Below are positions 7,474-24,694 of a stretch of DNA of 64,000 bases, in pieces; positions within the stretch are counted from its first letter, which is position 1, and each line of letters starts with the position of its first letter. The position numbers and the translations under genes are program-made. Under the pieces are notes generated by a model. That model ran no database searches and was not told where the DNA came from. It worked only from the letters and a program-made list of their open reading frames with translations. The stretch is from Armatimonadota bacterium. GTDB lineage: Bacteria; Armatimonadota; UBA5829; DTJY01. The stretch is taken from NCBI GenBank assembly GCA_017993055.1, contig JAGONM010000005.1, forward strand, positions 62,001 to 126,000. The letters run 5' to 3'.

Positions 7474-10400
7474 TCAGTTCGCAGGCACGATCAGCGCCAA
7501 GTCGTCCACGTTGGACTGCACCCAGTAGCCGTGCCACGGGGCCAGTGCGGTCTGAGCCACCCAGTCTTCGGGCAGGCCGAAATCGTAGAGTCCCTGCGAC
7601 CCGCTGTCCCACCAGTAACCGAGCGAGTTCATCCAGCCTTCAAGGTGCGAGGCATCGGACATTCCGAGCACATAGATACCGTTCGCGACCTTGACGTTCT
7701 CCCATTCACGGCTCTGAGTGAACGGATGCCCGATAAGCGTCCATCCAGCGGTCGGGAGGGTGATCCACTGATCATCGGTCTGATAGCGGCCCTGGTAGGA
7801 AATGGTCTTCGCGGACGGTGACTGCATCCAGTAACCGTCACCGAGCAGTATCCCTCCGAAGATGTCGGGGGTCCACGTGTCATAGGTATACAGCCCACCG
7901 ACGGAGGCTTCCCAGCGATACAGGGCGCCGTCAATCGGGATGCCGGACAGCACCACATCCGGCGACGGGTCGGACGGAATCGCAGGTACCGCGATCAGGT
8001 TCCATCCGGCCGTCACCGTCCCGCCAGGACTGGAAACGGCGCTAAGCGCAGGATTACGAACGATGTCGTTCACATCCCTCGGCATGATCGTCGGGATATT
8101 CCGACCGGGCACATTCCACGTGTCCGTCGTCGAGACGCCCGTCACCTCCAGACGCTCCCCGACATTCACGACAGTGTTGCTCGTGATACGCACACCGTAG
8201 TGGCCGGAGCCGTCATCCAGGGGGGCGTCCGACCGGTTCGATCCGTCATGGATATAGAAATACCCGGTGTTGGTGTAGTTGACCTTCCCGGTCGTCTTCA
8301 CGAGTAGTCCGACGTTCAGCGGCCCGCGGCCGTCGGTCACGCCGGGGTTCTCCGGACTCGGAGAGTTCCCTCCGAGGTCGCGGTTTCTCACGCCCAGAGG
8401 CACCGGAGGAGTAACCGTCTCGTGCACGACGGGAGGCATCGTCGGGGCGATCGAGCGCTCACCGTCGGTGACACCCAGGATGCCCTGGACCTGCGCCACG
8501 TCACCTCGCTTGACATAGTACCCGGCATCCATATTGACCCTGATGCCGCCGCTTCGGTCGGAGGACTGGATATAGAAGCACGTCGCCCAGACGCCAGAGA
8601 CTATGCCCTCCACATTCACGTAGCTGCCGTCCGGCATCTCGCGCACCGACGATATCGCCGCGCCGCGAGGCCCGGCGGCCTCCGAGAGCATGATGTCGGA
8701 GGCGGTCCGAACCCTGATACACCCGTTGCCGTAACGCGCGCGACGGCCGATCGGCCCCCGGAACATGTAGACCGCCCCGGGCTCGGGCCAAGCCGTCACG
8801 CCGGTCGTCAGAGGAGTCTCGATAACCAGCTCGGCCATGTTGCCGGACATGTCGGCAATGACGGAATAGGGCACCGGATCGCCGTAAGACGTCCCGGAGG
8901 GCTCTCCGTTTGGAACGTTCTTCAGCACGACCGCGCCCATCAATATCGCATACTTGCCCCAGGAGGGATGCTGCGAGATACTCGCATGCGCGAACTCGGG
9001 AATAGTGATACCCGCCGGCATCGCGGGGAGGCCGCCGATGTTGCCGTAGTTGCAGTACACGTCGGATGCGTAGGTTAGAGCGGTGTCAAGCCGAATCCGG
9101 CGCTCGTGACCGCTGGGAGTTGCGAGCATTCCCGTCACCCTGACCGTATCTCCCACCTTCGGCCTCGGCCCAACGTAAGTTGTGGGGTCTCCGGGATCAT
9201 CCATCTGATAGCTGAACGGGTCCTCGGGGATTGGGAACACCATGAGTATGCCGTTGTTCGGGTTGTTCGCGTCGCAGACGTACCATTGATAGCAGTAGCT
9301 CGTCAAGTCCTTGCGCTCGGCAAGCCCCTTCACCGCCGGAGGATTCGGCGATGTATAAGGGCCGGACGTCGCAGCAAAGACCACACCCTTGACGTTACAC
9401 TGCGTCGAATCCGCCAGCGCGCGCGCCTCGGCCACGGTGCAGGCACGAAGATAGAGCGTGGAGGACGACGGGCTGCCTCCCACGACAACCTCAACTGCGG
9501 GCAGGCTTCCGTAGCCAGATTTCACTGCCTGCACCTGGTAGGTGCCCTGGCTGAGCTCGAGCACGGCCACCCCGCTCGAGTTCGTCAGCGCGGATGTGTA
9601 TTCGAACGGATAGCCCGGCAGTCCCGGAGTTCCGCCGGTGGCTCGTACGACGGCGTTTGCGATCGGCCGGTTGGTCTCGTTGTGCTTGACGGTGAAGGTC
9701 ACGTTCGTGCCCGTCACGCGCAGCTGCACGCTGTCACTAACCGAGCCGGAACTGTCGGTGATGACAACGGGCAGGTTGTGAACGGCAACCCTAGCGCCGA
9801 CGGCCGCCTTGAGGCCGGGGACGGTGAAGATCGCCGTCCTTCCGGTGGGATCAGACGGAGCGCTCACTCGAGTGGTACTGATGACGTCCTCGGTGATGCC
9901 CACGGCATCGAGGTCTACTCGAATCTGCTGCGCGTCGGCCCAACCCGCGCCGTCGTACACCCATCCGGTCATGGTGGCCGTGGTGCTGTTGTCGCCGGGG
10001 ACCGACGCAGGCTCCATGGTGTAGAACGTCATCACCGGCAGGTGATCCCCGGTGGTGTTGAAGGTGTTGGTCCTGGTGTTGTAGGACGAAGTTCCCGGTT
10101 CCGTGAACATCGCCCAGTAGTACTGGCCCCACGTAGGCGTAGACTTACCGTAGGTGAACGCGACGTTGCCCACCGCATCGGTCTTGACCATGTGCCCCCA
10201 AGTGACCGTGCCGTATGTGACCGTGGTCACCGCACCGGTCGTCGGGTTGACCTGGTATATCGGGTAGCTTGCAGTAGGGCTATATGCCCTGTTCGCGGAG
10301 ACCCAGAGTTTCGACCCGTCGTGAGCCATGTCAACATCGAAACACGAAGGAATCGAGACCGGCCAGGGCGAACCGGCGGCAACCCAGACGTTGCCGGACT

Positions 10401-11328
10401 TCACCAACTTGTGGAGTTTGCCGTCGTAGCACACATACATCGTATTGCCGGCCGAATTGACCCACAGACCACCGATCTTGAAGTTGTCGTCACTGAGACC
10501 ACCGAGAGAGGCGATGATCACCGGCGTTCCCCACGTCTGGTGGTTCGCCTGGAGCGTCACCTGGTAGACGTCGCCGTATCCGCCCGTGACGTACACATAG
10601 GTCACGCCGCTCACGTCCGTCCTGGCGAACAGAGCCCTGGAGTAGGTCACCGGCGGCGACACCGACTCGATCCCGCTTCCGTCGGGCTTGCAGCAGTATA
10701 CGAGCCGGCTGCTGCGGTCGCCGACGTAGAAGTAGTCATCACCCGCGACACAGACATCCCACGGTGCACTCGCGCCCCAATAGACGCCAGTGTCGTTCAT
10801 CGTGCGGAAGAACGAGCCGTCGCCGCGGTAGACATAGATATCCTGATAGCTCTTGTGCGGGGAGTAGACGTAGCCGAAGTACGGGCTCGCGGCCCTCGTG
10901 TTGACGCCGATCCCATACCATCCCTCGATATCCGGGACGGTGGGGTTCGGCGGGCTGTACTCGACGGTCGGCTGGTCAATCTTGTAGATGCCGGCCTGAG
11001 GACGCCAAGCCGCTTCGTTGACACCCCCCGCCTCAATGACAGCTACATAGCGGTTGGTCGTAAGTCCGTAGTAGAAATGCTCTCGATAGCCCCGGGGCTC
11101 GTTGTAATAGGTTTCGGACTGGACGGGAGGGCCGGTAGGGTTGCCGTTGGCGTCGGAAGGATATATGGTAACGATTACATAAGCGGTATTCGTGTTGAGG
11201 CGATACGACACTTTGGCGAGGCTGCTCTGCGCCCACCCGGTTGGCTCATATACTGCAATCTTTGCTTCGGCGGATGCGGCAATCACCAGCATCAACGCCG
11301 ACACGATGCATAACCGCAGGAGCTTCAT
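7474..11328 (-). CDS. Large secreted multidomain protein with propeller-like, OB-like and GW/GYW C-terminal modules
   Basis: A 1284-residue exported protein. A classical signal peptide ends at AEA (residues 1-22). Residues ~100-430 contain repeated Tyr/Asp/Gly beta strands (for example YFYVGDRSSRLVYC and NTMYVCYDGKLHKL) that suggest a beta-propeller. A CarboxypepD_reg/CnaB-like Ig segment follows (~570-650), then several OB-like units with VGDTVRVTG, RGDVAQVQG and VGERLEVTG motifs (~660-1080). The last ~180 residues carry the GW...GYW module shared with the four plus-strand proteins from 11955 to 24694. No catalytic domain is recognised. The start has GAGGAGG 5 nt upstream. Function is probably extracellular binding or scaffolding (inference). 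Confidence 0.8.
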   Translation of the reverse strand: MKLLRLCIVSALMLVIAASAEAKIAVYEPTGWAQSSLAKVSYRLNTNTAYVIVTIYPSDANGNPTGPPVQSETYYNEPRGYREHFYYGLTTNRYVAVIEAGGVNEAAWRPQAGIYKIDQPTVEYSPPNPTVPDIEGWYGIGVNTRAASPYFGYVYSPHKSYQDIYVYRGDGSFFRTMNDTGVYWGASAPWDVCVAGDDYFYVGDRSSRLVYCCKPDGSGIESVSPPVTYSRALFARTDVSGVTYVYVTGGYGDVYQVTLQANHQTWGTPVIIASLGGLSDDNFKIGGLWVNSAGNTMYVCYDGKLHKLVKSGNVWVAAGSPWPVSIPSCFDVDMAHDGSKLWVSANRAYSPTASYPIYQVNPTTGAVTTVTYGTVTWGHMVKTDAVGNVAFTYGKSTPTWGQYYWAMFTEPGTSSYNTRTNTFNTTGDHLPVMTFYTMEPASVPGDNSTTATMTGWVYDGAGWADAQQIRVDLDAVGITEDVISTTRVSAPSDPTGRTAIFTVPGLKAAVGARVAVHNLPVVITDSSGSVSDSVQLRVTGTNVTFTVKHNETNRPIANAVVRATGGTPGLPGYPFEYTSALTNSSGVAVLELSQGTYQVQAVKSGYGSLPAVEVVVGGSPSSSTLYLRACTVAEARALADSTQCNVKGVVFAATSGPYTSPNPPAVKGLAERKDLTSYCYQWYVCDANNPNNGILMVFPIPEDPFSYQMDDPGDPTTYVGPRPKVGDTVRVTGMLATPSGHERRIRLDTALTYASDVYCNYGNIGGLPAMPAGITIPEFAHASISQHPSWGKYAILMGAVVLKNVPNGEPSGTSYGDPVPYSVIADMSGNMAELVIETPLTTGVTAWPEPGAVYMFRGPIGRRARYGNGCIRVRTASDIMLSEAAGPRGAAISSVREMPDGSYVNVEGIVSGVWATCFYIQSSDRSGGIRVNMDAGYYVKRGDVAQVQGILGVTDGERSIAPTMPPVVHETVTPPVPLGVRNRDLGGNSPSPENPGVTDGRGPLNVGLLVKTTGKVNYTNTGYFYIHDGSNRSDAPLDDGSGHYGVRITSNTVVNVGERLEVTGVSTTDTWNVPGRNIPTIMPRDVNDIVRNPALSAVSSPGGTVTAGWNLIAVPAIPSDPSPDVVLSGIPIDGALYRWEASVGGLYTYDTWTPDIFGGILLGDGYWMQSPSAKTISYQGRYQTDDQWITLPTAGWTLIGHPFTQSREWENVKVANGIYVLGMSDASHLEGWMNSLGYWWDSGSQGLYDFGLPEDWVAQTALAPWHGYWVQSNVDDLALIVPAN

Positions 11329-11489
11329 CCGATCCTCCTCATCAATCCTGGCTGTTCGTAGTCGACCTGCCCGGCAACTGATCGGATACGCTCAGACTCC
11401 TACTCCCGGAAGACCCAGGGAAGGGAAAGGCGTCCTTTGGGAGCGCGGGGCGAACGACAACCCGCGCCGGAACGCATCTGTCCGGCAGA

Positions 11490-11630
11490 TTGTTCCAGCG
11501 TATATCGCTATTATACTACAACTCGGCTCAAATGCGTCCGTGCGGGCCGAAAAACCAGTATTATTACCTGCAGGCGCTGTTTCGGAGTCGCGAAGGCCCC
11601 CGTATCGGCCGGTACTAGTACGGGGTTTTT
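11490..11630 (+). ncRNA. Candidate small RNA unit (promoter plus terminator, no ORF)
   Basis: In the 626-nt gap between divergent secreted-protein genes, TTGTTC (11490-11495), a 16-nt spacer and TATACT (11512-11517) are followed about 80 nt later by a stem-loop with five Ts ending at 11630. A transcript of roughly 105 nt from about 11524 is implied. No convincing ORF lies inside and I recognise no known RNA family, so it is a hypothesis based only on signal spacing. The rest of the gap (11331-11489) shows nothing I can name except a minus-strand TATAAT at 11510-11515, possibly the -10 box of the 7474-11328 gene. Confidence 0.3.
11598..11630 (+). terminator. Intrinsic terminator upstream of the glycosidase cluster
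   Basis: CCCCGTA (11598-11604) pairs with TACGGGG (11619-11625), followed directly by TTTTT (11626-11630). It lies 10 nt before the next promoter and has no recognised gene upstream on the same strand. Confidence 0.65.
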
Positions 11631-11640
11631 GGCATTTCTG

Positions 11641-11669
11641 TTGACAAGGAGCGGGTTTGAGGATATACT
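11641..11669 (+). promoter_or_regulatory. Consensus-like promoter of the GHL10 gene cluster
   Basis: TTGACA (11641-11646), a 17-nt spacer and TATACT (11664-11669). The predicted start near 11676 gives a ~280-nt untranslated leader before the ATG at 11955. I see no known riboswitch pattern in that leader. Confidence 0.85.
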
Positions 11670-11954
11670 TATTGTGCGCGGTTTTACTGGAGGCTGGTCG
11701 CCATCCGGTGGTATCCATACGTTGCGTGTGCCGCCTGAGACGTGGGAATCGTGATCTCGCCGATGGGCCTGTTGTCCTCCGATCGCTAGGAACAGCAAGT
11801 GTGCGTGGTCTGTCCCCCCATGTCTGCCAACGGCCTGCGCGTGCGTCTGGTATCTCCAGGTCGGTTTGCGACCATCCCGGCCAAGTGAAGACCTGCCTGT
11901 CAGATGAGACGGCGATTCCATCATCGGCAGGCGCGGCAGTACAGGTCGAGAAAT

Positions 11955-14585
11955 ATGGGAACGAGAGAGTCTCTCAGAGCCGCGCTCATACGGCTGATCC
12001 CGCTGGCGCTAGTGCTGGCATCCGCGGTGCCGTGCGTCTCGCAGACCGCGGAGGACCGCACGCTGTGGGTCTCCGCCTGGGGACCCGGGATCAAGAACGG
12101 GGCTGAGGTCACCGCCCTCGTCAACAGGGCGAAGAGCGGGAACTTCAACGCCATCGCCGCGCAGGTGCGCAAGACAGGCGACGCGTACTACTTCCCCACC
12201 CGCCCCAACCGCGACGTCCGGGCAGGCGACATCGCCGCCGATTACGATCCGCTCCTCGACCTCTGCACTCAGGCTCACGCACAGGGAATCCGGGTCTACG
12301 CCTGGGTGGTGGCTCAGCGCATTGCCTCGGTCGCGCCGCCCGATCCGGACCACCTCATGAACAGGCATCCCGACTGGCTCACGCAGACCATCACGGGCGG
12401 AACGCTATTCAGCGGCGAGGGCTACTACGCAGACCCGGGGAATCCCGGCGCCGCCGAGTGGAACTATAACACGGCCATGGACCTGATCCTACACTACCCG
12501 ATAGACGGCCTGCTGTTCGACTACATTCGATATCCCAACCAGAACTCCGGCTACAACGCCGCCGCTCTCGACAGGTTCCGCGTGCGGTACGGGCTGGGCA
12601 GCGCGTACGTCCCGAACTACACCGATTCGCTCTGGTCGGCATGGCGGCGCGAGCAGGTTACACACTTCATGCGGAGGGTCTACGCAAACGCGCTCGAGAC
12701 GCGGCCGGAAATCGTCATCGGCGCGTCCACATACGGCGATCGAAACGACGCATACACGTATCGTTTCCAGGACTGGCGGTCCTGGATGATGAGCGGGATC
12801 ATGGACTGCAACTACCCGATGATCTACACGACCAGCAACACGACCTTCAACACGCGCATCGGCGACTGCGTGGCGAACGGTGGAGCGCGTTGGACCTGCG
12901 TGCTGCAGGGATCATACCTGAATACAATCGCCAACACGATGTCACAGATCGGGCTGGCCAGATCGGCCGGAGCGAAGGGCGCAGGCATATATCGGTACTG
13001 CTACACGCACAGCGGAGACACCAACTCATCAGCGGATGACGAGCCGACGTTCTACTCTACCCTGACCTCTCAGGCATTCACGCAGCCGGTGAGCCCACCG
13101 GCTATGCCGTGGAAGACCTCGCCGACCGTCGGTCACGTCAAAGGGACGATCGTAGATTCAGTGCAGGGAAAGGGCGTTGACGCCGCCTGGGTAATGATAG
13201 AGCCCATAGGAGGAGGCGGATACGGCACCTATTCCGACGGCAACGGTTTCTACGCATACATGAACCTGGCTCCCGGCGACTACAACATCAGCGTCAGCAA
13301 GGACGGCTTCTACGCTACCAAACCGGTGACCATCAGCGCAGGGAGCGTCAGCACTGTGGACTTCGTCGCGTCGGGCGTGGAGGCCGCAGGCGCGGGATTT
13401 GCCAAGCTGCTTCCAGACGGCTCCGGTGTCGCCCTGCCGCCGATGACAGTGACAGCCGGAAACACTCAGCTCCGAAACAGATTCTACATCGAAGACGCCA
13501 ATCACGCCTCGGGGATCGCCGTCGAACTCCCCTCGCAGACGGACGTGCTCGTCTGCCCGGGCGACCTGGTGAGGGTCTTTGGAACGGTCATGACGACGGC
13601 CGACGGCGAGCGGGTGATCGCCAATCCGCTCGTGCATACCGTGGAGGCCGACCACGGTGCCGCGACGCCCGTCGGCGTCAGGGGGAAGGATCTGGCCGGC
13701 ACCTCGGCGGCATCGGCGCAGGCGGGCGCGGATGCGGGGAAGGCAGGAATCTTCGTCGAGGCCGTCGGCAAGGTCACGGCGGTGGACGCCGCGTCGAAGA
13801 TTTTCTACATTGAAGACGGCAGCCTCATCAGCGACGGCTCGGGGGCGACAGGACTGAGAGTGCGGTATTCCGGCCTAGCTGACGGCAACCCGTTCTCGCC
13901 GCCGCCGCTCAATGCCCGAGTTCGAGTGACGGGCATCGTCGGCATCGAGAGCATTATCGGCGCGCCTCACTGCACGCTGATCCCCAGGGAGCAGAACGAC
14001 GTCTCGATCGAGCCGGGCACCGCCGTGCAGTCGCCGGTCGGAGCGGTGTCCGACGGGTGGAACCTCGTCTCGATCCCCGGTACGCCCTGGGAGCCGTCAC
14101 CATCGAGCGTTTTCGGAGGCATGACGATTGACGCGGCGCTCTATCAGTGGGACAACCGCACACAGAGCCTGATAGGCTATGACGATTGGACGCCCGAGTC
14201 GTTCGGGCGGGTCTTCAGAGGAGACGGATACTGGCTCGTTGCGGACTCGGCGCATCAGCTCGATGTGACGGTGTACGGCAATGCATCGAGCAACTTCCTG
14301 ATAGCTCTCCCAAAGGCCGGATGGACCCTGTTCGGCAACCCATTCGACTCCGAGAGGCCGTGGGGCAGTTTCCTTGTGACCGACGGGCTGGAGGCGAAGA
14401 CCTTGGCATCGGCCGCCCAGGCCGGCGCCTGGCTCAACTCTATCGGATATTGGTGGGATTCGAGCGTGCAGAGCCTGTACGACATAGGGCTGCCAGAGGA
14501 TTTCCCGAGCACTGAGATCATGCGACCGTGGCATGGGTACTGGCTGCAGACGCATGTGGATGACTTGTCGCTGATTGCGAGATAG
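11955..14585 (+). CDS. Secreted GHL10-type glycoside-hydrolase-like protein with OB-like and GW/GYW modules
   Basis: An 876-residue exported protein. A signal peptide covers residues ~1-30. A GHL10 (DUF187/YddW-like) TIM-barrel domain follows at ~35-379, with the family hallmarks QVRKTGDAYY, AHAQGIRVYAWVV and DGLLFDYIRYP; the Asp in FDYIRYP is a likely active-site or sugar-contact residue. A CnaB/CarboxypepD_reg-like domain (~393-475), two OB-like units with FYIED and GDLVRVFG motifs (~480-690) and the shared C-terminal GW/GYW module (701-876) complete it. It lacks the golvesin-like and FN3 parts of its three downstream relatives. ATG 11955 is chosen because a signal peptide follows directly. 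The substrate is probably a surface or environmental glycan, not determinable. Confidence 0.85.
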   Translation: MGTRESLRAALIRLIPLALVLASAVPCVSQTAEDRTLWVSAWGPGIKNGAEVTALVNRAKSGNFNAIAAQVRKTGDAYYFPTRPNRDVRAGDIAADYDPLLDLCTQAHAQGIRVYAWVVAQRIASVAPPDPDHLMNRHPDWLTQTITGGTLFSGEGYYADPGNPGAAEWNYNTAMDLILHYPIDGLLFDYIRYPNQNSGYNAAALDRFRVRYGLGSAYVPNYTDSLWSAWRREQVTHFMRRVYANALETRPEIVIGASTYGDRNDAYTYRFQDWRSWMMSGIMDCNYPMIYTTSNTTFNTRIGDCVANGGARWTCVLQGSYLNTIANTMSQIGLARSAGAKGAGIYRYCYTHSGDTNSSADDEPTFYSTLTSQAFTQPVSPPAMPWKTSPTVGHVKGTIVDSVQGKGVDAAWVMIEPIGGGGYGTYSDGNGFYAYMNLAPGDYNISVSKDGFYATKPVTISAGSVSTVDFVASGVEAAGAGFAKLLPDGSGVALPPMTVTAGNTQLRNRFYIEDANHASGIAVELPSQTDVLVCPGDLVRVFGTVMTTADGERVIANPLVHTVEADHGAATPVGVRGKDLAGTSAASAQAGADAGKAGIFVEAVGKVTAVDAASKIFYIEDGSLISDGSGATGLRVRYSGLADGNPFSPPPLNARVRVTGIVGIESIIGAPHCTLIPREQNDVSIEPGTAVQSPVGAVSDGWNLVSIPGTPWEPSPSSVFGGMTIDAALYQWDNRTQSLIGYDDWTPESFGRVFRGDGYWLVADSAHQLDVTVYGNASSNFLIALPKAGWTLFGNPFDSERPWGSFLVTDGLEAKTLASAAQAGAWLNSIGYWWDSSVQSLYDIGLPEDFPSTEIMRPWHGYWLQTHVDDLSLIAR

Positions 14586-14660
14586 CTTAGTTTATGCCGA
14601 GCACCCTGGCGGCCCGCGCAGCCGAGATGGGCGAACTCGAGACCGAGAGAAAGGCGTTTG

Positions 14661-17375
14661 ATGGCTAGATACCTAATCGCGGCACTGATGATGGCCGTCA
14701 TGGCGGCTCAGGGATATGCAGCGCCGATCGAGATAATCCTCGACAACCCGAGCGCGACGCTGGTCGGCACCTGGGCAACCGGAACGACCGCATCCGGGAG
14801 ATACGGGAGCGACTACTACTGGTGCGCTCAGTCCACGTCGGGCGGCAGGACAGCCACGTACACGCCAAGCATCCCCGTGACCGCAAGCGACTGGGAGGTC
14901 TACTCCTGGTATCCCGCCGGCACGAACCGCCCTACGCAGGCCGAGTACCTGATACACTCGGCAGGCGGAGACTACTACGTCTACGTGAACCAACAGATCA
15001 ACGGCGGCCAGTGGGTGCAGGTCGGAACATACTCGTTCCTAGCCGGTACAAGCGGATACGCCCGGATCACGAACCGGGGTGACGAGGGCAAGAACGTGAT
15101 GGCGGACGCATTCAGATTCTACTGCCCGTCAGGCGGCGTAGACACCATTCCCCCGACGATATTCAGCGTGGCGGCCGAGCCCGACTACAAGTCGGCGACG
15201 ATCCGCTGGAGCACGAACGAGGCCGCTACATCGCAAGTGGAGTACGGCCTTACAGCCGCCTACGGAAGCCAGACCGCGAAGAAGCCGGGGCCGGCGATGC
15301 AGCACATCGCATACGTGACGGGCCTCTCACCGGCGACGACCTACCACTATCGGGTCAAGTCCGAGGACAGCGCGGGCAACCTCGGCGTATCGGGCGACTT
15401 TACTTTCGCTACGACAAGCGCGCCGAAGCCGGAGTACAGGGCAATGTGGGTGGACACATGGGGCGAAGGCATACTGAACCCGTCTCAGGTCACGACGCTG
15501 GTGAACACCGCCAAGACCCACAACTACAACGTGATCATCCCTGAGATCAGGAAGGCAGGCGACGCTTACTATGACTCGGCCTACGAGCCGAGGGCCACCA
15601 ACATCACCCAGCCGCTGCCCTGGGACCCGCTTCAGGACCTGATCACCAAGGCGCACGCCGAGGGAATCGAAGTGCATGCGTGGATAGTGACCTACAGGAT
15701 ATGGCGGGTGGCATGGGGGGCGGCGCCTCCCTATCACATGTGGACGCTGCACCCTGAGTGGGTGATGCTGAGCAAGACGGGAGAAGACAACGACGGCTCC
15801 AGCTATTTCTTCGACCCCGGAGTGCCGCAGGTCCAGCGCTACGTGTGCGAGGTCGTCAAGGATATCGTAGGCAAGTACGAGATTGACGGGTTCAACTTCG
15901 ACTACATACGCTACATGGGCGCGGAGTGGGGCTACAATCCCATCGCAAGACAGCGCTTCTACAATGAATACGGTTACTACCCACCCACCAGTGACAACGG
16001 CGCGCAGTGGGACAACTGGTGCGACTACAGGCGCACTCAGGTAACGGACCTGGTCAGAAAGTGCTATCTCGAGGCCACGAAGATCAGGCCTCAGATCAAG
16101 ATGTCCGCCTGTCTCACCGGCGGAGGCGGACTGTATCCCACGTATGATTTCACCAACACATCAACATACTACGACGTCTTCCAGAACTGGCCGGCCTGGG
16201 CCGAGGAAGGAATCCTGGACCTCCTGACCCCGATGGGCTACAAGGACGAGGACATTCCCACATCGGCACGCGACTATCGCGACTGGACGGACTTCTTCGT
16301 GGACCACCGCTACGGCAGGCACATGGCCAAGGGCCAGGGCGCATACATGAACTCGATCGAGAACAGCATCATCCAGATGCAGTATGCGCGGGATGCGGGA
16401 GCGGACGGGATGGTGACCTACAGCTACCGATCCACGAACGACGAAGGCAGGCCGAACTCGGAGTTCTACAACGCAGTGAGTTCGACCGTATTCGCTTCCC
16501 CGGCGGCGATTCCCGAAATGCCTTGGAAGACGAACCCGACCGGAGGTATCATCTTCGGCACGGTGACGAAAGCGTCAGGCGCTCCGGACCCGATATACTG
16601 GCAGTGGCTGTACAAGGCCACCGTGAGCATAAGCGGCCCGGTCACGCTGAACACAGTCACGGACGCGACCGGCACGTACGGGTTCATTGACCTTCCGCCG
16701 GGGACTTACACTGTCACATACTCCAAGACAGGCTACCCCAACCGGGTGATAAGCGGCCTGGAACTGTCCGCCGGACAGGTGATCCGCAGGGACGTGGCGC
16801 TCGGAACGGTAACGGTGACGTCGCCCGCGGGCGTGGTCGTGAACGGGTGGAGCCTGTTCAGCCTTCCGGTGGACCCGGTGAATCCCGATCCGGCCTCGGT
16901 GATGAACGGCATAGACATAGACGGCCGGCTCTACGGGTGGAACAATGCGACGCAGAGCCTGACGGCCTACGACGTATGGTCGCCGGAAGCGTTCGGGAAC
17001 ATGAACGTGGAGAACGGTTACTGGCTGGATTCGAACTCCGCCGGAGCCATATCCTACGAGGGCTACCCGAGCAATGCCACGGCGCGCGACATACCGCTGT
17101 CCAAGTCCGGCTGGGCGATCATCGGATGCCCCTTCACCAGCAACAAGCAGTGGCCTGACACCGCTGCCACGCACGGAGGACAGACCGTGCCGCTTTCCAC
17201 GGCGGTATACACCAACAACTGGCTGACCTCGATCGGATACTGGTGGGATGCGACGGTTCAGAGCCTGAGCGACATCGGACTCCCCGAGGACTTCCCGTCC
17301 TCCGAGACGCTTCAGCCGTGGCACGGCTACTGGATTCAGACCAACGTGGACGACCTGACTCTCAGGTTGAGATGA
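14661..17375 (+). CDS. Secreted GHL10 protein with golvesin-like, FN3 and GW/GYW modules (copy A)
   Basis: A 904-residue exported protein. Signal peptide 1-21; golvesin/Xly-type carbohydrate-binding-like beta domain (~22-157); one fibronectin type III domain (~165-255) with the TSQVEYG strand; GHL10 barrel (~257-610) with EIRKAGDAYY, GIEVHAWIVTYR and GFNFDYIRY; a CnaB-like Ig domain (~620-720); and the GW/GYW module (729-904). ATG 14661 follows AAGG by 6 nt. It begins 75 nt after the previous gene in the same direction, so co-transcription is likely. Nucleotides 16524-17362 are repeated without visible change in the next gene, pointing to recent duplication or gene conversion. Probably a cell-surface or secreted glycan hydrolase. 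Confidence 0.88.
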   Translation: MARYLIAALMMAVMAAQGYAAPIEIILDNPSATLVGTWATGTTASGRYGSDYYWCAQSTSGGRTATYTPSIPVTASDWEVYSWYPAGTNRPTQAEYLIHSAGGDYYVYVNQQINGGQWVQVGTYSFLAGTSGYARITNRGDEGKNVMADAFRFYCPSGGVDTIPPTIFSVAAEPDYKSATIRWSTNEAATSQVEYGLTAAYGSQTAKKPGPAMQHIAYVTGLSPATTYHYRVKSEDSAGNLGVSGDFTFATTSAPKPEYRAMWVDTWGEGILNPSQVTTLVNTAKTHNYNVIIPEIRKAGDAYYDSAYEPRATNITQPLPWDPLQDLITKAHAEGIEVHAWIVTYRIWRVAWGAAPPYHMWTLHPEWVMLSKTGEDNDGSSYFFDPGVPQVQRYVCEVVKDIVGKYEIDGFNFDYIRYMGAEWGYNPIARQRFYNEYGYYPPTSDNGAQWDNWCDYRRTQVTDLVRKCYLEATKIRPQIKMSACLTGGGGLYPTYDFTNTSTYYDVFQNWPAWAEEGILDLLTPMGYKDEDIPTSARDYRDWTDFFVDHRYGRHMAKGQGAYMNSIENSIIQMQYARDAGADGMVTYSYRSTNDEGRPNSEFYNAVSSTVFASPAAIPEMPWKTNPTGGIIFGTVTKASGAPDPIYWQWLYKATVSISGPVTLNTVTDATGTYGFIDLPPGTYTVTYSKTGYPNRVISGLELSAGQVIRRDVALGTVTVTSPAGVVVNGWSLFSLPVDPVNPDPASVMNGIDIDGRLYGWNNATQSLTAYDVWSPEAFGNMNVENGYWLDSNSAGAISYEGYPSNATARDIPLSKSGWAIIGCPFTSNKQWPDTAATHGGQTVPLSTAVYTNNWLTSIGYWWDATVQSLSDIGLPEDFPSSETLQPWHGYWIQTNVDDLTLRLR
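16524..17362 (+). repeat. 839-bp direct repeat, copy 1
   Basis: Covers the CnaB-like domain and the whole GW/GYW module of the 14661 gene. It matches 19510-20348 at a constant 2986-nt offset. Reading frames on both strands inside the two copies give identical peptides, so silent sites are also conserved. Identity stops sharply on both sides. Confidence 0.9.
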
Positions 17376-17610
17376 GAATGGGAACCGCAGGGCGCGCCGA
17401 ACGTCTGTAGAATGGCGGTCTTGAACCTGAGAAATCTGCGGTATAGCGGGGAAAACGGGCGGATTGGCATTGATCTTGCAGTAGATGAGCTTGGCGGCGT
17501 TCAAGCGCACGCCTTGGACATACAAACTCTCAGGTAGGGAGGCGGGCAGTGGGGCCTCTCATGAGCATAGCACGGCAATCACCAACGCTGGAAATCGGAG
17601 GTAAAGCATC

Positions 17611-20361
17611 ATGAACAGAATATCGTGGATGGTCGCGGCAGTCCTGTTGACCTGCCTCGCCATCCCTGCAATGTGCGCACAGGAAGTCATCATTGACAAT
17701 CCCGGCGCGACGTTTGTCGGCACGTGGAGTACAGGCACGAGTGCGACTGACAAGTACGGGTCGGACTACCGGTACTGCAACCAGAGCACTGCGGGCACGA
17801 ACACGGCAACCTACACGCCGAACATACCAACGACGGCGAGCGACTGGCAGGTCTACACGTGGTTTCCCACTGTCACCACGTCCTCCACGGGCACGCAGTT
17901 CATCATCCACCACGCAGGGGGCGACGCGACAGTCACCATAAGCCAGAGCACGAACCGCGGCATGTGGGTACTGCTCGGCACATACACGATGAACGCGGGC
18001 ACCGGGAACTACGCGCGGATTACGAACTACTCGCCCAGCAGCACGAGAAGGGCGATCGCTGACGCGATGCGCTTCTACTCGGCCACGGCCGCAGACACCA
18101 CCCCGCCGGTGATATCCGGTGTGTCGGCATCATTCGGCGCGACTTACGCCACCATCACCTGGCAGACAGACGAGGCTTCCACCTCGCAGGTCGAGTACGG
18201 GTTGACCCAGAGCTACGGCAGCCAAACGACGGAGGACACCGCTCTCGTCAAGAGCCACAGCGTCTCCATCACCGGCCTGACGCCCGGGACGACCTACAAC
18301 TACCGCGTCAAGTCGAAGGACGCAGACAACAACCTGGCGACTTCGGGGAACTTCACCTTCACAACCAACGAACTCACCCCCGAGTTCAGAGCGATATGGA
18401 TCAATACCTGGAACAACGGCTTCCTGAGCGCGGCGCAGAACACGGCGCTCGTCAATACTACCAAGGGAGCCAACTACAACGTGCTGATCCCTGAGGTTCG
18501 AAAGGCGGGAGACGCTTACTACAACGCCTCGCCTCTCTACTGCCATTTCTGCGGCGGCTACCACAGTGAGCCGAGGGCATCGAACATCCTCGATCCCGCG
18601 CCCTTCGATCCGCTTCAGGACCTGATAGACAAGGCACACGCCGAGAACATGGAAGTACACGCATGGGCGGTAGCCTACCGGATATGGAGAACCAACTGGA
18701 GTCCTCCGCCCGCAGACCACATCTGGTCGGTCCATCCGGAATGGGCCATGATGACCAACACCGGCAGCAACGTTGACGGCACCAGCTACAATCTGGATCC
18801 CGGCGTGCCGGCGGTGCAGGACTATCTGGCCAAGCTGGCCATGGATATCGTGACCAACTACGACGTGGACGGCATGAACTGGGACTACATACGGTATCCC
18901 GGGACCACCTGGGGCTATAACGACATCACGAAGCAGCGCTTCTACGACGAGTACGGCTACTATCCGCCGACCTCGTCCAGCGACCCGAACTGGGGAGTGT
19001 GGGGCGACTATCGTAGGCAGCAGGTCACCGACCTGGTGAAGAGGGTGTATCTCGAGATCATGTCCGTGAAACCGCACGTCAACCACAACGTTGACACGGT
19101 CGGCTGGTCCGGCGGCGACCCGAACGTAGACTTCACAACTACCCGCCAGTACACCGATGTCTTCCAGAACGCCAAGAGCTGGATGGAACAGCACATCATC
19201 GACACCAACATCCTGATGAACTACAAGCGTGAGTACGATGCGGCTCAGGCTCCGGACTACCGCTTGTGGACGAACTGGCTGGCGACCATGCAGGCGAACA
19301 CCGGCCGATGGAGCGTTGACGGCCAGGCCGCATACCTCAACTCGATCCCGGACAGTATCACGCAGATGCAGGTTGCCAGGAACGCCGGCATCGGCCTGAA
19401 CACCTATGACTTCAACACCACGAACAAGGACAGTCTGCCCGCGGCCGACTTCTTCGCCGCGGTCAAGGCCAGCGTATATCGCGATCCGGCGCCGGTGCCG
19501 GTCATGACCTGGAAGACGAACCCGACCGGAGGTATCATCTTCGGCACGGTGACGAAAGCGTCAGGCGCTCCGGACCCGATATACTGGCAGTGGCTGTACA
19601 AGGCCACCGTGAGCATAAGCGGCCCGGTCACGCTGAACACAGTCACGGACGCGACCGGCACGTACGGGTTCATTGACCTTCCGCCGGGGACTTACACTGT
19701 CACATACTCCAAGACAGGCTACCCCAACCGGGTGATAAGCGGCCTGGAACTGTCCGCCGGACAGGTGATCCGCAGGGACGTGGCGCTCGGAACGGTAACG
19801 GTGACGTCGCCCGCGGGCGTGGTCGTGAACGGGTGGAGCCTGTTCAGCCTTCCGGTGGACCCGGTGAATCCCGATCCGGCCTCGGTGATGAACGGCATAG
19901 ACATAGACGGCCGGCTCTACGGGTGGAACAATGCGACGCAGAGCCTGACGGCCTACGACGTATGGTCGCCGGAAGCGTTCGGGAACATGAACGTGGAGAA
20001 CGGTTACTGGCTGGATTCGAACTCCGCCGGAGCCATATCCTACGAGGGCTACCCGAGCAATGCCACGGCGCGCGACATACCGCTGTCCAAGTCCGGCTGG
20101 GCGATCATCGGATGCCCCTTCACCAGCAACAAGCAGTGGCCTGACACCGCTGCCACGCACGGAGGACAGACCGTGCCGCTTTCCACGGCGGTATACACCA
20201 ACAACTGGCTGACCTCGATCGGATACTGGTGGGATGCGACGGTTCAGAGCCTGAGCGACATCGGACTCCCCGAGGACTTCCCGTCCTCCGAGACGCTTCA
20301 GCCGTGGCACGGCTACTGGATTCAGACCAACGTGGACGACCTGACTCTGACCATTCAGTAG
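17611..20361 (+). CDS. Secreted GHL10 protein with golvesin-like, FN3 and GW/GYW modules (copy B)
   Basis: A 916-residue paralogue of the preceding protein: signal peptide (1-22), golvesin-like domain (~23-155), one FN3 (~164-252), GHL10 barrel (~257-625) with EVRKAGDAYY and GMNWDYIRYPG, CnaB-like domain (~644-730) and GW/GYW module (741-916). An insert with CHFCGG near residue 310 is unique among the four barrels. The first two thirds have diverged from copy A while the last 839 bp are identical, so the two halves have different histories. ATG 17611 has GGAGGT 8 nt upstream. The 235-nt gap before it shows no terminator or clear promoter. Confidence 0.88.
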   Translation: MNRISWMVAAVLLTCLAIPAMCAQEVIIDNPGATFVGTWSTGTSATDKYGSDYRYCNQSTAGTNTATYTPNIPTTASDWQVYTWFPTVTTSSTGTQFIIHHAGGDATVTISQSTNRGMWVLLGTYTMNAGTGNYARITNYSPSSTRRAIADAMRFYSATAADTTPPVISGVSASFGATYATITWQTDEASTSQVEYGLTQSYGSQTTEDTALVKSHSVSITGLTPGTTYNYRVKSKDADNNLATSGNFTFTTNELTPEFRAIWINTWNNGFLSAAQNTALVNTTKGANYNVLIPEVRKAGDAYYNASPLYCHFCGGYHSEPRASNILDPAPFDPLQDLIDKAHAENMEVHAWAVAYRIWRTNWSPPPADHIWSVHPEWAMMTNTGSNVDGTSYNLDPGVPAVQDYLAKLAMDIVTNYDVDGMNWDYIRYPGTTWGYNDITKQRFYDEYGYYPPTSSSDPNWGVWGDYRRQQVTDLVKRVYLEIMSVKPHVNHNVDTVGWSGGDPNVDFTTTRQYTDVFQNAKSWMEQHIIDTNILMNYKREYDAAQAPDYRLWTNWLATMQANTGRWSVDGQAAYLNSIPDSITQMQVARNAGIGLNTYDFNTTNKDSLPAADFFAAVKASVYRDPAPVPVMTWKTNPTGGIIFGTVTKASGAPDPIYWQWLYKATVSISGPVTLNTVTDATGTYGFIDLPPGTYTVTYSKTGYPNRVISGLELSAGQVIRRDVALGTVTVTSPAGVVVNGWSLFSLPVDPVNPDPASVMNGIDIDGRLYGWNNATQSLTAYDVWSPEAFGNMNVENGYWLDSNSAGAISYEGYPSNATARDIPLSKSGWAIIGCPFTSNKQWPDTAATHGGQTVPLSTAVYTNNWLTSIGYWWDATVQSLSDIGLPEDFPSSETLQPWHGYWIQTNVDDLTLTIQ
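19510..20348 (+). repeat. 839-bp direct repeat, copy 2
   Basis: Second copy of 16524-17362. The final residues after the repeat differ (LRLR in copy A, LTIQ in copy B), so the identity ends just inside the coding region. Confidence 0.9.
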
Positions 20362-20390
20362 GACATAGACGGGCGCAAGGCTGACTTCTT

Positions 20391-20433
20391 GCGAGTGGCC
20401 CGCGGCCACCCCCGGCCAGGGCGGGCCACTCGC
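20391..20433 (+). other. Strong intergenic hairpin between two GHL10 genes
   Basis: A perfect 13-bp stem (20391-20403 with 20421-20433) with an inner GGCC/GGCC pairing in the 17-nt loop region. No U tract follows, so it may be an mRNA-processing or stability element, or a factor-dependent stop, rather than an intrinsic terminator. Confidence 0.6.
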
Positions 20434-20527
20434 CAACGGCCTCACTGAGGCTGTTCACATGACTGTACTGCAACAGCGGGCGGATGCTGTCAAGGTCGCT
20501 CCCGCGGTTTCACGAGGAGGCATGCGT

Positions 20528-23500
20528 ATGAGAACTCCAATCCTGCGGTACCTGACGACGGCACTGGCAACGGTGCTGATCTCAGCGTGCGCCACCGCAA
20601 CCGAGATCAAGATTGACGACAGCATCAACTCGCAGTGGATCAGCACCTCGGGCTCCTGGACGACAGGCACATCTTCTGCCCAGAAATACGGAAGCAGTTA
20701 CTACTACGCAAACCAGGAGCCGGACGGCGCCAAGGCGGTGACCTTCACGCCGGTCATCCCGTTCGACGACGGGAGCTGGGAGGTCTACGTATGGTACTCC
20801 TCCGGCATGGACAGGGCTACTCAGGCTGAGTGCGTTATACACCACGCATCCGAAGAGTCGAGGGTACTGATAAACCAGCAGCAGAACGGCGGGATGTGGG
20901 TCTACCTCGGAACCTACCAGATGGACGGCGGGTCTTCGGACTTCATCCGCATCACCAATAACGGTCTGGAAACCGGCAAGGTGGTCGTCGCCGATGCGGT
21001 ACGCCTCTACTCGAGCCTGGGAGACAAGGTGCCGCCGATCATCTCGAACGTGGGAAGCACCCCGGGATCGAACTCCGCGGTCATCAAGTGGCAGACCGAC
21101 GAACCTGCAACATCTCAGGTTCACTACGGTCTGACCTCGAGCTACGGCAGTTCGAGCCAGTTCGACTCCGCGCTGGTCAAGGATCATGAGATGAGCATCA
21201 CTGGGCTCAGCCCGGAGACGACCTATCACTTTCGAGTGAAGTCGGAGGACGGCGCGGGCAATATCGGGCTCTCCGGCGACTACACGTTCACCACCGGTCC
21301 GCCGGACAACTTCCCGCCGATAATATCTGGAATCACGGTCGTGCCGGGGGCCAACTCGGCGGTGGTTTTGTGGACGACCGACGAGCCGGCGACCTCTCAG
21401 GTCGAGTACGGCGAGACCGGGGACTACGGACACAGCACTGTTCTGAAGACAGCCCTCGTAACGGAACATCGCGTCATCGTGCTGAACCTGACCCCGGATA
21501 CGGTCTATCATCTCAGAGTGAAGTCGTCAGACGGGGCGGGCAACGCGGCTGTTTCGGACGACGTGACATTCACGAGTACGTCCCCGGACACCGAAGGTCC
21601 GGTGATCAGCGACATGACGGCTTCTGCCGATGTTACCTCGGCGGTCGTCACATGGGTCACGAACGAGTACTCGACCTCGCGGGTTGAGTACGGCCTGACG
21701 CCGCTGTACGGAGTCGTGACGGCGCTGGACGCTGATCTGGTGGTCGAACACAGCGTCAGTCTAGCGAACCTCCAGCCGCAGACAACTTACTATTACCGCG
21801 TGATATCCGTGGACGGCTCGGGCAACCAGACGATCTCGCCGGGGTCGTCGTTCGAAACGAAGCCACCGGACACCATCCCGCCGGAGTTCAGCAACGTCCA
21901 GGCCGTGCCGGCGTCGAGGACGTGCCTGATCACATGGACGACCAACGAGGCCTCGACGTCGCAGGTGACGTACGGCCTCGCCGACCCGCCGGATGTCAGC
22001 AGCGCCAAGCAGACAGAACGGGTGACGAGCCACTCCGTGACTCTGTCCGAGCTCGAACCGGAAACAAAGTACTACTTCACCGTCCTGTCGTGCGACGCGC
22101 TCGACAACTGCGGGGCGTCCCAGGTCTTCTGGTTCACGACCAAGGCGTCGGACGTAACCCCGCCGGTGATAAGCGAGATACTGGCGGAGCCGGGCTCCGT
22201 GTCCGTCGTCATCACCTGGGCGACCAACGAGCCCGCCACATCGCAGGTGGAGTACGGGGAGACCGATGCGTACGGAAACCTGACAGCGATTGACCCGAAC
22301 TGGGTAACCGACCACCGCGTGGTGATAACGACTCTGGCATCAGGGACCGAGTACCACTTCCGGGTGCGTTCGATGGACTCGGACGGAAACGAAGCGGTCT
22401 CCGAGGACCACTCGTTCACGACCCAGGGACCGGACGAGACGGCGCCGGTGATATCCGAGGTGTCGGTTTCGCAGAACATGAACTCGGCGATCATCAGGTG
22501 GAGGACGGACGAGCCGGCGACGTCGCGCGTTGACTACGGAACGACGACCGCTTACGGCGAGTACCGGGAGAGCGGGGATCTCGTCAAGATTCACAGCGTG
22601 ACGCTGACCGACCTGCTGGCCGACACGCTGTACCATTTCCGGATCACGTGCAGTGACGACGCAGGGAATACAGCGATATCGGGAGACTACACGTTCCGCA
22701 CCTCACTCATGGAGCCGGAGTACCGGATGATCTGGGCGGACACATGGCACAACGGCTTCCTGAGCGAGGCCGAGACGGCGCAGTTCATAGATGCCGTCTC
22801 AGACGCGAACTACAACGCGGTGGTTGTCGAGGTGCGCAAGGCCGGCGACGCATACTACTTGTCCGGCTACGAGCCGTGGGCCACCAACATCAGCCCGCCG
22901 GGCGGGATCTACGATCCGCTCCAGGACTTGATCAACAAGGCGCACGCCAAGGGCATCGAAGTGCATGCCTGGATCGTGACCTTCAGGGCCTGGTACAACG
23001 GCTGGCCCACCCCCCCGGACGGTCATATCTGGAGAGAACACGGAGCCGGGACCGCGGAAGACTGGGCGATGCGCAACTCCTCCGGGGGCTACCTCGAAGG
23101 CAACAGCTTGAACGTTGACCCGGGTGTGCCGGCGGTACAGGACTACATGGCGAACATCGTGAAAGACATCGTCAGCAAGTATCCGCAGGTTGACGGGATC
23201 AACTTCGACTACATCCGCTACCCGGGGGCCTTGTGGGGATACAACCAGTACACGAAGGACCGCTTCTTCGCGGAGTACGGCTACTATCCGCCGACTTCGT
23301 CCGCGGACCCGAACTGGGGGGCCTGGTGCGACTACCGGCGACGGCAGGTCACGGACCTCGTCAGGAGATGCTACGTAGAGGCGATGCACATCAACCCGCG
23401 AATCAAGATGTCCGTGGACACCGTCGGTTGGGAGGGCCCGGACCCAAGCACGAACTACGAGGGAACATCACAGTACGCAGGCGTCTTTCAGGACGCGCGT

Positions 23501-24694
23501 GCGTGGATGCAGCAGCACATCGTGGACATCAACGTCCTGATGAACTACAAGCGGGAGTTCAATACCGTTCAGAAGGCGAGTTACCGCGTGTGGGCGGACT
23601 GGCTCCCCAGGGTAGCGAACTCGACCGGGAGACTGGCGGTTGACGGCCAGGGAGTCTATCTGAACTCAATCGCCGGAAGCGTCACCCAGATGAACTACTC
23701 GCGCGAGGCAGGAAGTGACGGGTTGTGCAGTTACAGTTACGCGGTAACGAACAAGGACGGTCAACCCGCGGGCGATTTCTTCACCGCCGTCAAGAGCAAC
23801 CTGTTTGGCGCGCCGGCGCCGATTCCGGACATGCCGTGGAAGGATCAGCCTACGACGGGCATCCTCTTCGGCACGGCGACCGACTCGGCCAACCCGAACG
23901 ACCCGATATACCGCAACTGGCTGTACAAGGCGGAGGTGAACCTGACGGGTCCGGTCAACAGAAGCACGCTCACAGACGCGACCGGCACCTATGCGTTCCT
24001 GGATCTCCCTGCAGGCACATACGCGGTCGAGTTCGCGAAGCCCGGGTACAAGGTCAAGTCATACGGCGGGCTGACGGTCGCGGCGGGCGACGTGCTGAGG
24101 CGCGACGCCTCGCTCGAGTCCGGGATGTTTACGTCTCCGCCGGGAGCCGTCGCGACGGGGTGGAACCTCATCAGCCTGCCGCTAGTGCCAGCCAACCCGG
24201 ATCCCGGGGCGGTCTTCAGCGGCCTAGACATAGAGGGCAGACTGTACCGATGGGACAAGGTGAACAAGAGCATCATCGCATTCACCGAATGGTCTCCGGA
24301 GGAGTTCGGAGAAATCAGCACTGACGAAGGCTACTGGCTGCAGTCCACCCGAAACGCCGCGATCAGCTACGAACCGGCCGAGGTCCAGCCCGAAGGCCCG
24401 AGGACCATCGTTCTCCCGAAGGCAGGCTGGAACATCATCGGCTGCCCGTTTACGACCCCGCGCGACTGGAACGACATGATCGTATCCTACGGATCCATCG
24501 AGCGACCTGCAAGCACCGCCCGGGACTACGGCTGGATTGACACGATCTGCTATTGGTGGGACAACAGCGTGCCGGGCGGAGCGATGCTGCAGCTCGGCCT
24601 GGACGACGACTGGGTGGACACGACATTCCTCCAGCCCTGGAGGGGTTACTGGTTCTTCACGAAGCGGGACGACATACGCATCAGGATCTACTAG
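20528..24694 (+). CDS. Putative lipoprotein: GHL10 enzyme with six FN3 domains and GW/GYW module
   Basis: At 1388 residues this is the largest of the barrel proteins. The N-terminus has a hydrophobic stretch ending LISAC, a good lipobox, so it may be lipid-anchored where its paralogues are released. A golvesin-like domain (~27-163) is followed by six FN3 domains starting near residues 168, 262, 356, 452, 545 and 639, each opening with a PP/GP-x-IS-type motif and containing a TSxVxYG strand. The GHL10 barrel (~730-1100) has EVRKAGDAYY and GINFDYIRYPG. A CnaB-like domain (~1114-1205) and a more diverged GW/GYW module (1211-1388) end the protein. ATG 20528 is preferred to 20522 because GAGGAGG then lies 7 nt upstream. 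Confidence 0.88.
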   Translation: MRTPILRYLTTALATVLISACATATEIKIDDSINSQWISTSGSWTTGTSSAQKYGSSYYYANQEPDGAKAVTFTPVIPFDDGSWEVYVWYSSGMDRATQAECVIHHASEESRVLINQQQNGGMWVYLGTYQMDGGSSDFIRITNNGLETGKVVVADAVRLYSSLGDKVPPIISNVGSTPGSNSAVIKWQTDEPATSQVHYGLTSSYGSSSQFDSALVKDHEMSITGLSPETTYHFRVKSEDGAGNIGLSGDYTFTTGPPDNFPPIISGITVVPGANSAVVLWTTDEPATSQVEYGETGDYGHSTVLKTALVTEHRVIVLNLTPDTVYHLRVKSSDGAGNAAVSDDVTFTSTSPDTEGPVISDMTASADVTSAVVTWVTNEYSTSRVEYGLTPLYGVVTALDADLVVEHSVSLANLQPQTTYYYRVISVDGSGNQTISPGSSFETKPPDTIPPEFSNVQAVPASRTCLITWTTNEASTSQVTYGLADPPDVSSAKQTERVTSHSVTLSELEPETKYYFTVLSCDALDNCGASQVFWFTTKASDVTPPVISEILAEPGSVSVVITWATNEPATSQVEYGETDAYGNLTAIDPNWVTDHRVVITTLASGTEYHFRVRSMDSDGNEAVSEDHSFTTQGPDETAPVISEVSVSQNMNSAIIRWRTDEPATSRVDYGTTTAYGEYRESGDLVKIHSVTLTDLLADTLYHFRITCSDDAGNTAISGDYTFRTSLMEPEYRMIWADTWHNGFLSEAETAQFIDAVSDANYNAVVVEVRKAGDAYYLSGYEPWATNISPPGGIYDPLQDLINKAHAKGIEVHAWIVTFRAWYNGWPTPPDGHIWREHGAGTAEDWAMRNSSGGYLEGNSLNVDPGVPAVQDYMANIVKDIVSKYPQVDGINFDYIRYPGALWGYNQYTKDRFFAEYGYYPPTSSADPNWGAWCDYRRRQVTDLVRRCYVEAMHINPRIKMSVDTVGWEGPDPSTNYEGTSQYAGVFQDARAWMQQHIVDINVLMNYKREFNTVQKASYRVWADWLPRVANSTGRLAVDGQGVYLNSIAGSVTQMNYSREAGSDGLCSYSYAVTNKDGQPAGDFFTAVKSNLFGAPAPIPDMPWKDQPTTGILFGTATDSANPNDPIYRNWLYKAEVNLTGPVNRSTLTDATGTYAFLDLPAGTYAVEFAKPGYKVKSYGGLTVAAGDVLRRDASLESGMFTSPPGAVATGWNLISLPLVPANPDPGAVFSGLDIEGRLYRWDKVNKSIIAFTEWSPEEFGEISTDEGYWLQSTRNAAISYEPAEVQPEGPRTIVLPKAGWNIIGCPFTTPRDWNDMIVSYGSIERPASTARDYGWIDTICYWWDNSVPGGAMLQLGLDDDWVDTTFLQPWRGYWFFTKRDDIRIRIY

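Follow-up and report, generated by a model that had tools for sequence, protein, structure and literature searches.

What could be the task of a protein tail that recurs at the end of five neighbouring exported proteins with different N-terminal parts? The question is raised by positions 7474-24694 of the stretch of DNA analysed here (the window, 64,000 nucleotides from an Armatimonadota bacterium), where the original prediction saw five consecutive exported proteins sharing a C-terminal module. All five ORFs were confirmed and each encodes a C-terminal module of 185-187 aa, with approximately 50 invariant columns in the alignment of the five tails and 37-49% identity to its first row.

Gene cluster and domain composition

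The five genes and their parts are located as follows.

7474..11328 (-): P0001, exported protein with propeller-like and OB-like parts and the terminal module; based on the ORF
7477..8034 (-): module of P0001, residues 1099-1284; alignment and own-genome profile match with an E of 6.6e-89
7780..8013, limits approximate (-): first half-repeat of the P0001 module; half-vs-half profile comparison
7483..7773, limits approximate (-): second half-repeat of the P0001 module; half-vs-half profile comparison
8053..8547 (-): OB-like domain of P0001; HMM E 1.6e-15, and BLAST to locus L079, 5717-6262
11904..14585 (+): P0002, with GHL10, CarboxypepD_reg, OB-like domain and module
12108..12860 (+): GHL10 of P0002; PF02638
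13551..14015 (+): OB-like domain of P0002; HMM E 3.7e-21
14028..14582 (+): module of P0002; alignment and own-genome profile
14658..17375 (+): P0003, with Golvesin_C, fn3-like, GHL10, CarboxypepD_reg and module; the ATG start is probably at 14661
15438..16283 (+): GHL10 of P0003; PF02638
16524..17362 (+): first copy of an 839-bp repeat (CarboxypepD_reg and most of the module), in P0003
16818..17372 (+): module of P0003; alignment and own-genome profile
17611..20361 (+): P0004, with the same layout as P0003
18382..19332 (+): GHL10 of P0004; PF02638
19510..20348 (+): second copy of the 839-bp repeat, in P0004, identical to 16524-17362
19804..20358 (+): module of P0004; alignment and own-genome profile
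20459..24694 (+): P0005, with Golvesin_C, six fn3-like repeats, GHL10, CarboxypepD_reg and module
22724..23605 (+): GHL10 of P0005; PF02638
24131..24691 (+): module of P0005, the most diverged of the five; alignment and own-genome profile

P0001 gave no Pfam match and has a signal-peptide-like N-terminus according to a heuristic. Its OB-like domain, so labelled from a reading of the sequence pattern without Pfam support, is homologous to a separate gene that adjoins stand-alone module genes in other genomes. Fusion of the module to varied N-terminal parts had been correctly predicted, although the OB-like part, thought to be limited to one protein, is present in P0002 as well. GHL10 (PF02638) was recognized in P0002-P0005 with 115.8-127.1 bits against a curated cut-off of 27.9, and inspection by eye found HAW..V..R and DG...DYIRY in all four of these parts. 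DigH is among the known GHL10 proteins. DigH reportedly cleaves denuded peptidoglycan glycans (PMC12288456), lytic transglycosylase activity is reported for the GHL10 protein Cwp19 (PMC6016235), whose putative active-site residues are Asp196 and Arg132 (PMC5765458), and a Deinococcus enzyme, in a paper naming GHL10, is reported on starch (PMC9967864). Across the whole 3.7-Mb genome G000 there are 32 GHL10 matches, and just six such proteins were seen with the module.

The two 839-bp copies have sharp edges and cover CarboxypepD_reg and the module except for its last few codons, and the N-terminal parts of P0003 and P0004 differ. Because these 839 bp are identical, the modules of P0003 and P0004 are non-independent samples. 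Such a pattern would fit a gene conversion in which one gene recently took over the tail of its neighbour; an assembly artefact in this draft genome would also fit.

Sequence, internal repeat and predicted structure of the module

Both halves of the module open with GW followed by a hydrophobic-Pro motif and extend to a (G/C)YW or GYW segment, in agreement with the GW starts and YW closes first described. GYWWD and VDDL, however, are not universal: P0005 has CYWWD and RDDI in their place, and the five tails end in VDDLALIVPAN, VDDLSLIAR, VDDLTLRLR, VDDLTLTIQ and RDDIRIRIY. When profiles of the two halves, derived from 51 non-redundant modules, were compared with hhalign, they matched with a probability of 96.3 and a score of 48.8, whereas the score was no higher than 16.8 when columns were shuffled (60 controls) and 7.2 in the reversed control. 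Judging from these profiles the two halves are homologous and the apparent product of an ancient internal duplication, as had been suggested. Trp accounts for 6.1% and Tyr for 4.8% of the modules of this genome, with 11-13 Trp in each window tail.

A second, related subfamily with plainer repeats (GWNLVS...KDGxGxFYxP...GY) was found in the Calditrichaeota group; its profile matches that of the module with a probability of 97.8, and it has no Pfam assignment either. Two genomes of this group, G041 and G062, hold 57-63 module-profile matches each, mostly of the KDGxGxFYxP subfamily.

The view that the module lies outside characterised families was upheld, in that searches with the five proteins and 34 diverse modules returned no Pfam or NCBIfam match above the curated cut-offs but only single weak ones, comparison with PDB chains gave no sequence match, and no Pfam profile of known carbohydrate-binding families matched the module. 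Kinship to the SH3-like GW domains of the Listeria type, an idea prompted by the motif and by the 80-residue period, was dropped, as no Pfam match to these was seen at E up to 1 for the five proteins or 0.1 for the diverse modules, and GW here starts the repeat. Text searches of the literature on the motif, domain or phylum yielded nothing about the module domain, and homologues were found neither in viral contigs by our scans nor on plasmids by tblastn.

Two AlphaFold models, computed from seven sequences in a shallow alignment, reached moderate values (pLDDT 73.6 and 71.2; pTM 0.51 and 0.59). Both are beta-rich and, when strands and helices are compared, predict a broadly similar order of elements in the two halves: a strand on GWxLI, a short helix, strands around xYxW, another short helix and a strand on GYW. 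The second half has a hairpin and a helix in addition. A fold search of both models against the PDB and viral structures returned nothing at E<=0.001, with probabilities not exceeding 0.21. The module is an exported, beta-rich domain of two homologous halves that carries no family name.

Distribution and sorting signals

A profile search found 21 copies of the module in the window's genome, 17 of which end no more than 6 residues from the C-terminus and one within 29, the other three being internal. The claim that the module is always terminal holds for the window, but neither for the genome nor for the family, since distant relatives carry it mid-protein with 150-280 more residues after it. 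Most module proteins of the genome have signal-peptide-like N-termini, a few being undecided, according to a simple hydrophobicity heuristic rather than a trained predictor, and the N-terminal partners include GHL10, polysaccharide deacetylase, C39-like peptidase and subtilase. Two adjoining genes at L072 2765-7905 (G000, contig C37) have diverged modules, and one of them is a subtilase (PF00082) with an internal module. Lipobox-like signal-peptide ends (LISAC, LGAC) were noted at the N-terminus of P0005 (window ~20522-20600) and at L073 4075-8019 (-), which suggests a possible lipoprotein nature for part of the module proteins but not for others.

In L030 the module is followed by a Por_Secre_tail, in L049 by a weak FlgD_ig match and, in one genome (L042/L147), by a PEP-CTERM-like tail. 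Because the module is internal in distant relatives, where separate sorting signals come later, the proposal that it is itself a sorting tail had to be rejected. Por_Secre_tail matched neither the window proteins nor anything else in the window's genome, and the C-termini of the window tails show no PEP motif, membrane helix or basic end; the genome does encode an exosortase.

The module was found in 40 of the 41 genomes searched among the bacterium's own and its relatives, in 27 of 39 genomes from the phylum to which a contig with Calditrichaeota in its title belongs (with up to 63 profile matches per genome), and in 18 of 38 from that of a contig titled Krumholzibacteriia. The window's cluster is kept in G002, another genus of the same family, as a divergent P0001-like gene followed by four GHL10-module genes (L073). 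Many genomes also encode a stand-alone form, small secreted proteins with no part other than a signal peptide and the module, whose genes are twice in tandem (L076, L078). At L148 1-4805 (G026, contig C178) a fusion of the OB-like domain and the module appears to be split over two frames, the start of the OB-like domain in one and its end with the module in the other, by a frameshift or a sequencing error. The genome comparisons show that the module is mobile, occurring as part of many exported proteins or as a gene of its own.

Linkage to the DIRSP domain

Internal modules usually precede a domain with the pattern W...DGYD...DIRSP...W (DIRSP), which has no Pfam match; one of the three internal copies in the window's genome precedes a C39-like peptidase instead. 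DIRSP also makes up the ectodomain of PEP-CTERM proteins whose genes lie immediately upstream of those for stand-alone modules: this ectodomain and the domain after internal modules matched in hhalign with a probability of 89.4 and a score of 44.1, shuffles reaching 13.2 at most. Same-strand clusters of a PEP-CTERM gene followed by a module gene were found in ten genomes (L078, L079, L080, L141-L146, L149), nine of family f3 and one of f5. An OB-like gene comes next in six of them (L079, L141, L143, L144, L146, L149), and its domain is the one found directly before the module in P0001, P0002 and several paralogues.

In 29 genomes, searched at approximately E<=1e-10, there were 39 DIRSP domains, 30 of which lie no more than 6 kb from a module against fewer than one expected, a figure inflated by a profile partly seeded with domains beside modules. 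The window's genome gives a cleaner test, as all three of its DIRSP domains are fused to or near a module, and one of these arrangements recurs in G002 and G004 with almost unchanged spacing (~4.02 kb). There is no DIRSP gene in the window's own gene cluster, and several genomes (G005, G007) have terminal modules with no detected DIRSP neighbour.

These comparisons show a module that is repeatedly fused to DIRSP or encoded beside it, with the sorting signal on the DIRSP side: a T9SS tail where the two are fused, as in L030 with Por_Secre_tail behind both module and DIRSP, and PEP-CTERM where they are separate genes. The OB-like domain and the module, like the module and DIRSP, are fused in some proteins and neighbours in others, and by the usual comparative evidence such relations indicate that the parts work together. 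What fusion and neighbourhood show is joint function rather than contact.

Discussion

Based on this linkage we propose, with a probability of about 0.38, that the exported module is a docking domain whose partner is an anchored DIRSP domain, either in the same protein (in cis) or in another one (in trans). The module would be a plug and DIRSP its anchored socket, and terminal modules without a DIRSP domain would dock in trans. GHL10 and propeller-like proteins with the module tail, as found in the window's genome, would leave the cell with no anchor themselves and be held at the surface through PEP-CTERM-DIRSP proteins whose genes lie on contigs C10 and C11, possibly with a role in handling peptidoglycan or exopolysaccharide. 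Of the common anchor initially suggested, only a modified form would then survive, namely non-covalent docking to an anchored partner. The partner relation is well supported by gene arrangement, the binding mechanism being putative. Points against docking are the lack of a DIRSP gene in the window's cluster, the terminal modules of several genomes with no detected DIRSP nearby, and the three internal copies in the window's genome, one of them ahead of a C39-like peptidase. A wider generalization, in which several phyla would share a two-part attachment with plugs on many enzymes and a DIRSP socket anchored by T9SS or PEP-CTERM/exosortase, either fused or operon-split, is rather doubtful.

The proposed logic is that of cohesin-dockerin systems, in which many enzymes carry a terminal module for docking to a partner that is anchored; the module has, however, no sequence relation to these in Pfam, and docking in our case is something we infer. 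Another exported enzyme of the GHL10 type, Cwp19 (PMC5765458), has a C-terminal part that is non-catalytic and thought to hold it at the surface, but none of the cell-wall-binding families in Pfam matches the module of the window. The T9SS Por_Secre_tail (PF18962) resembles our module in being C-terminal on varied exported proteins, and differs in coming behind the module as a domain of its own in L030 and in being absent from the window's genome. With PEP-CTERM/exosortase systems (PMC1569441) the common ground lies in the PEP-CTERM tails of the proposed partner proteins and in the exosortase of the genome; unlike such short signals, though, the module is a folded domain, and the window tails lack the PEP motif, helix and basic end.

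Direct glycan binding by the module is a serious rival to docking, even if itself on the improbable side. Fusion to GHL10, polysaccharide deacetylase and other exported parts would agree with it, as would the richness in Trp and Tyr and the reported association of PEP-CTERM systems with exopolysaccharide (PMC1569441). No Pfam family matches the module, however, carbohydrate-binding ones included; the aromatic residues are kept across unrelated fused parts and may be merely structural; subtilase and C39-like peptidases are fused to it too; and the recurrent DIRSP pairing would not be explained by glycan binding alone. Unlikely, in our opinion, is that the module serves as a ligand-free structural cap or folding unit for long chains of exported beta-domains: although it is often the last of several beta-rich domains and has many different fusion partners, this would not account for the many genomes in which a secreted protein has nothing but a signal peptide and the module, tandem genes included, nor for the fact that the unfused module still adjoins DIRSP. 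A C-terminal sorting or anchoring signal for a dedicated secretion or sortase-like machine, favoured by the 17 terminal copies out of 21 and by the conserved DDLALIVP-like end, is largely refuted and highly improbable, given the internal position in many relatives with Por_Secre_tail, FlgD-like domains or (L042/L147) a PEP-CTERM-like tail to follow, the lack of Por_Secre_tail in the window's genome, and a length of ~185 residues with two repeats that is, to our knowledge, unlike known sorting motifs.

Coming back to docking on DIRSP, exported enzymes that carry modules for attachment are familiar, and what is new here is the family and its pairing with a domain anchored by two sorting systems. 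An abundant, unnamed extracellular domain gains a family definition, an origin by internal duplication and a concrete partner. If the pairing is true, it would explain how secreted hydrolases that lack an anchor are retained at the surface of these little-studied bacteria, and one attachment unit would have been passed between T9SS and PEP-CTERM/exosortase anchoring.
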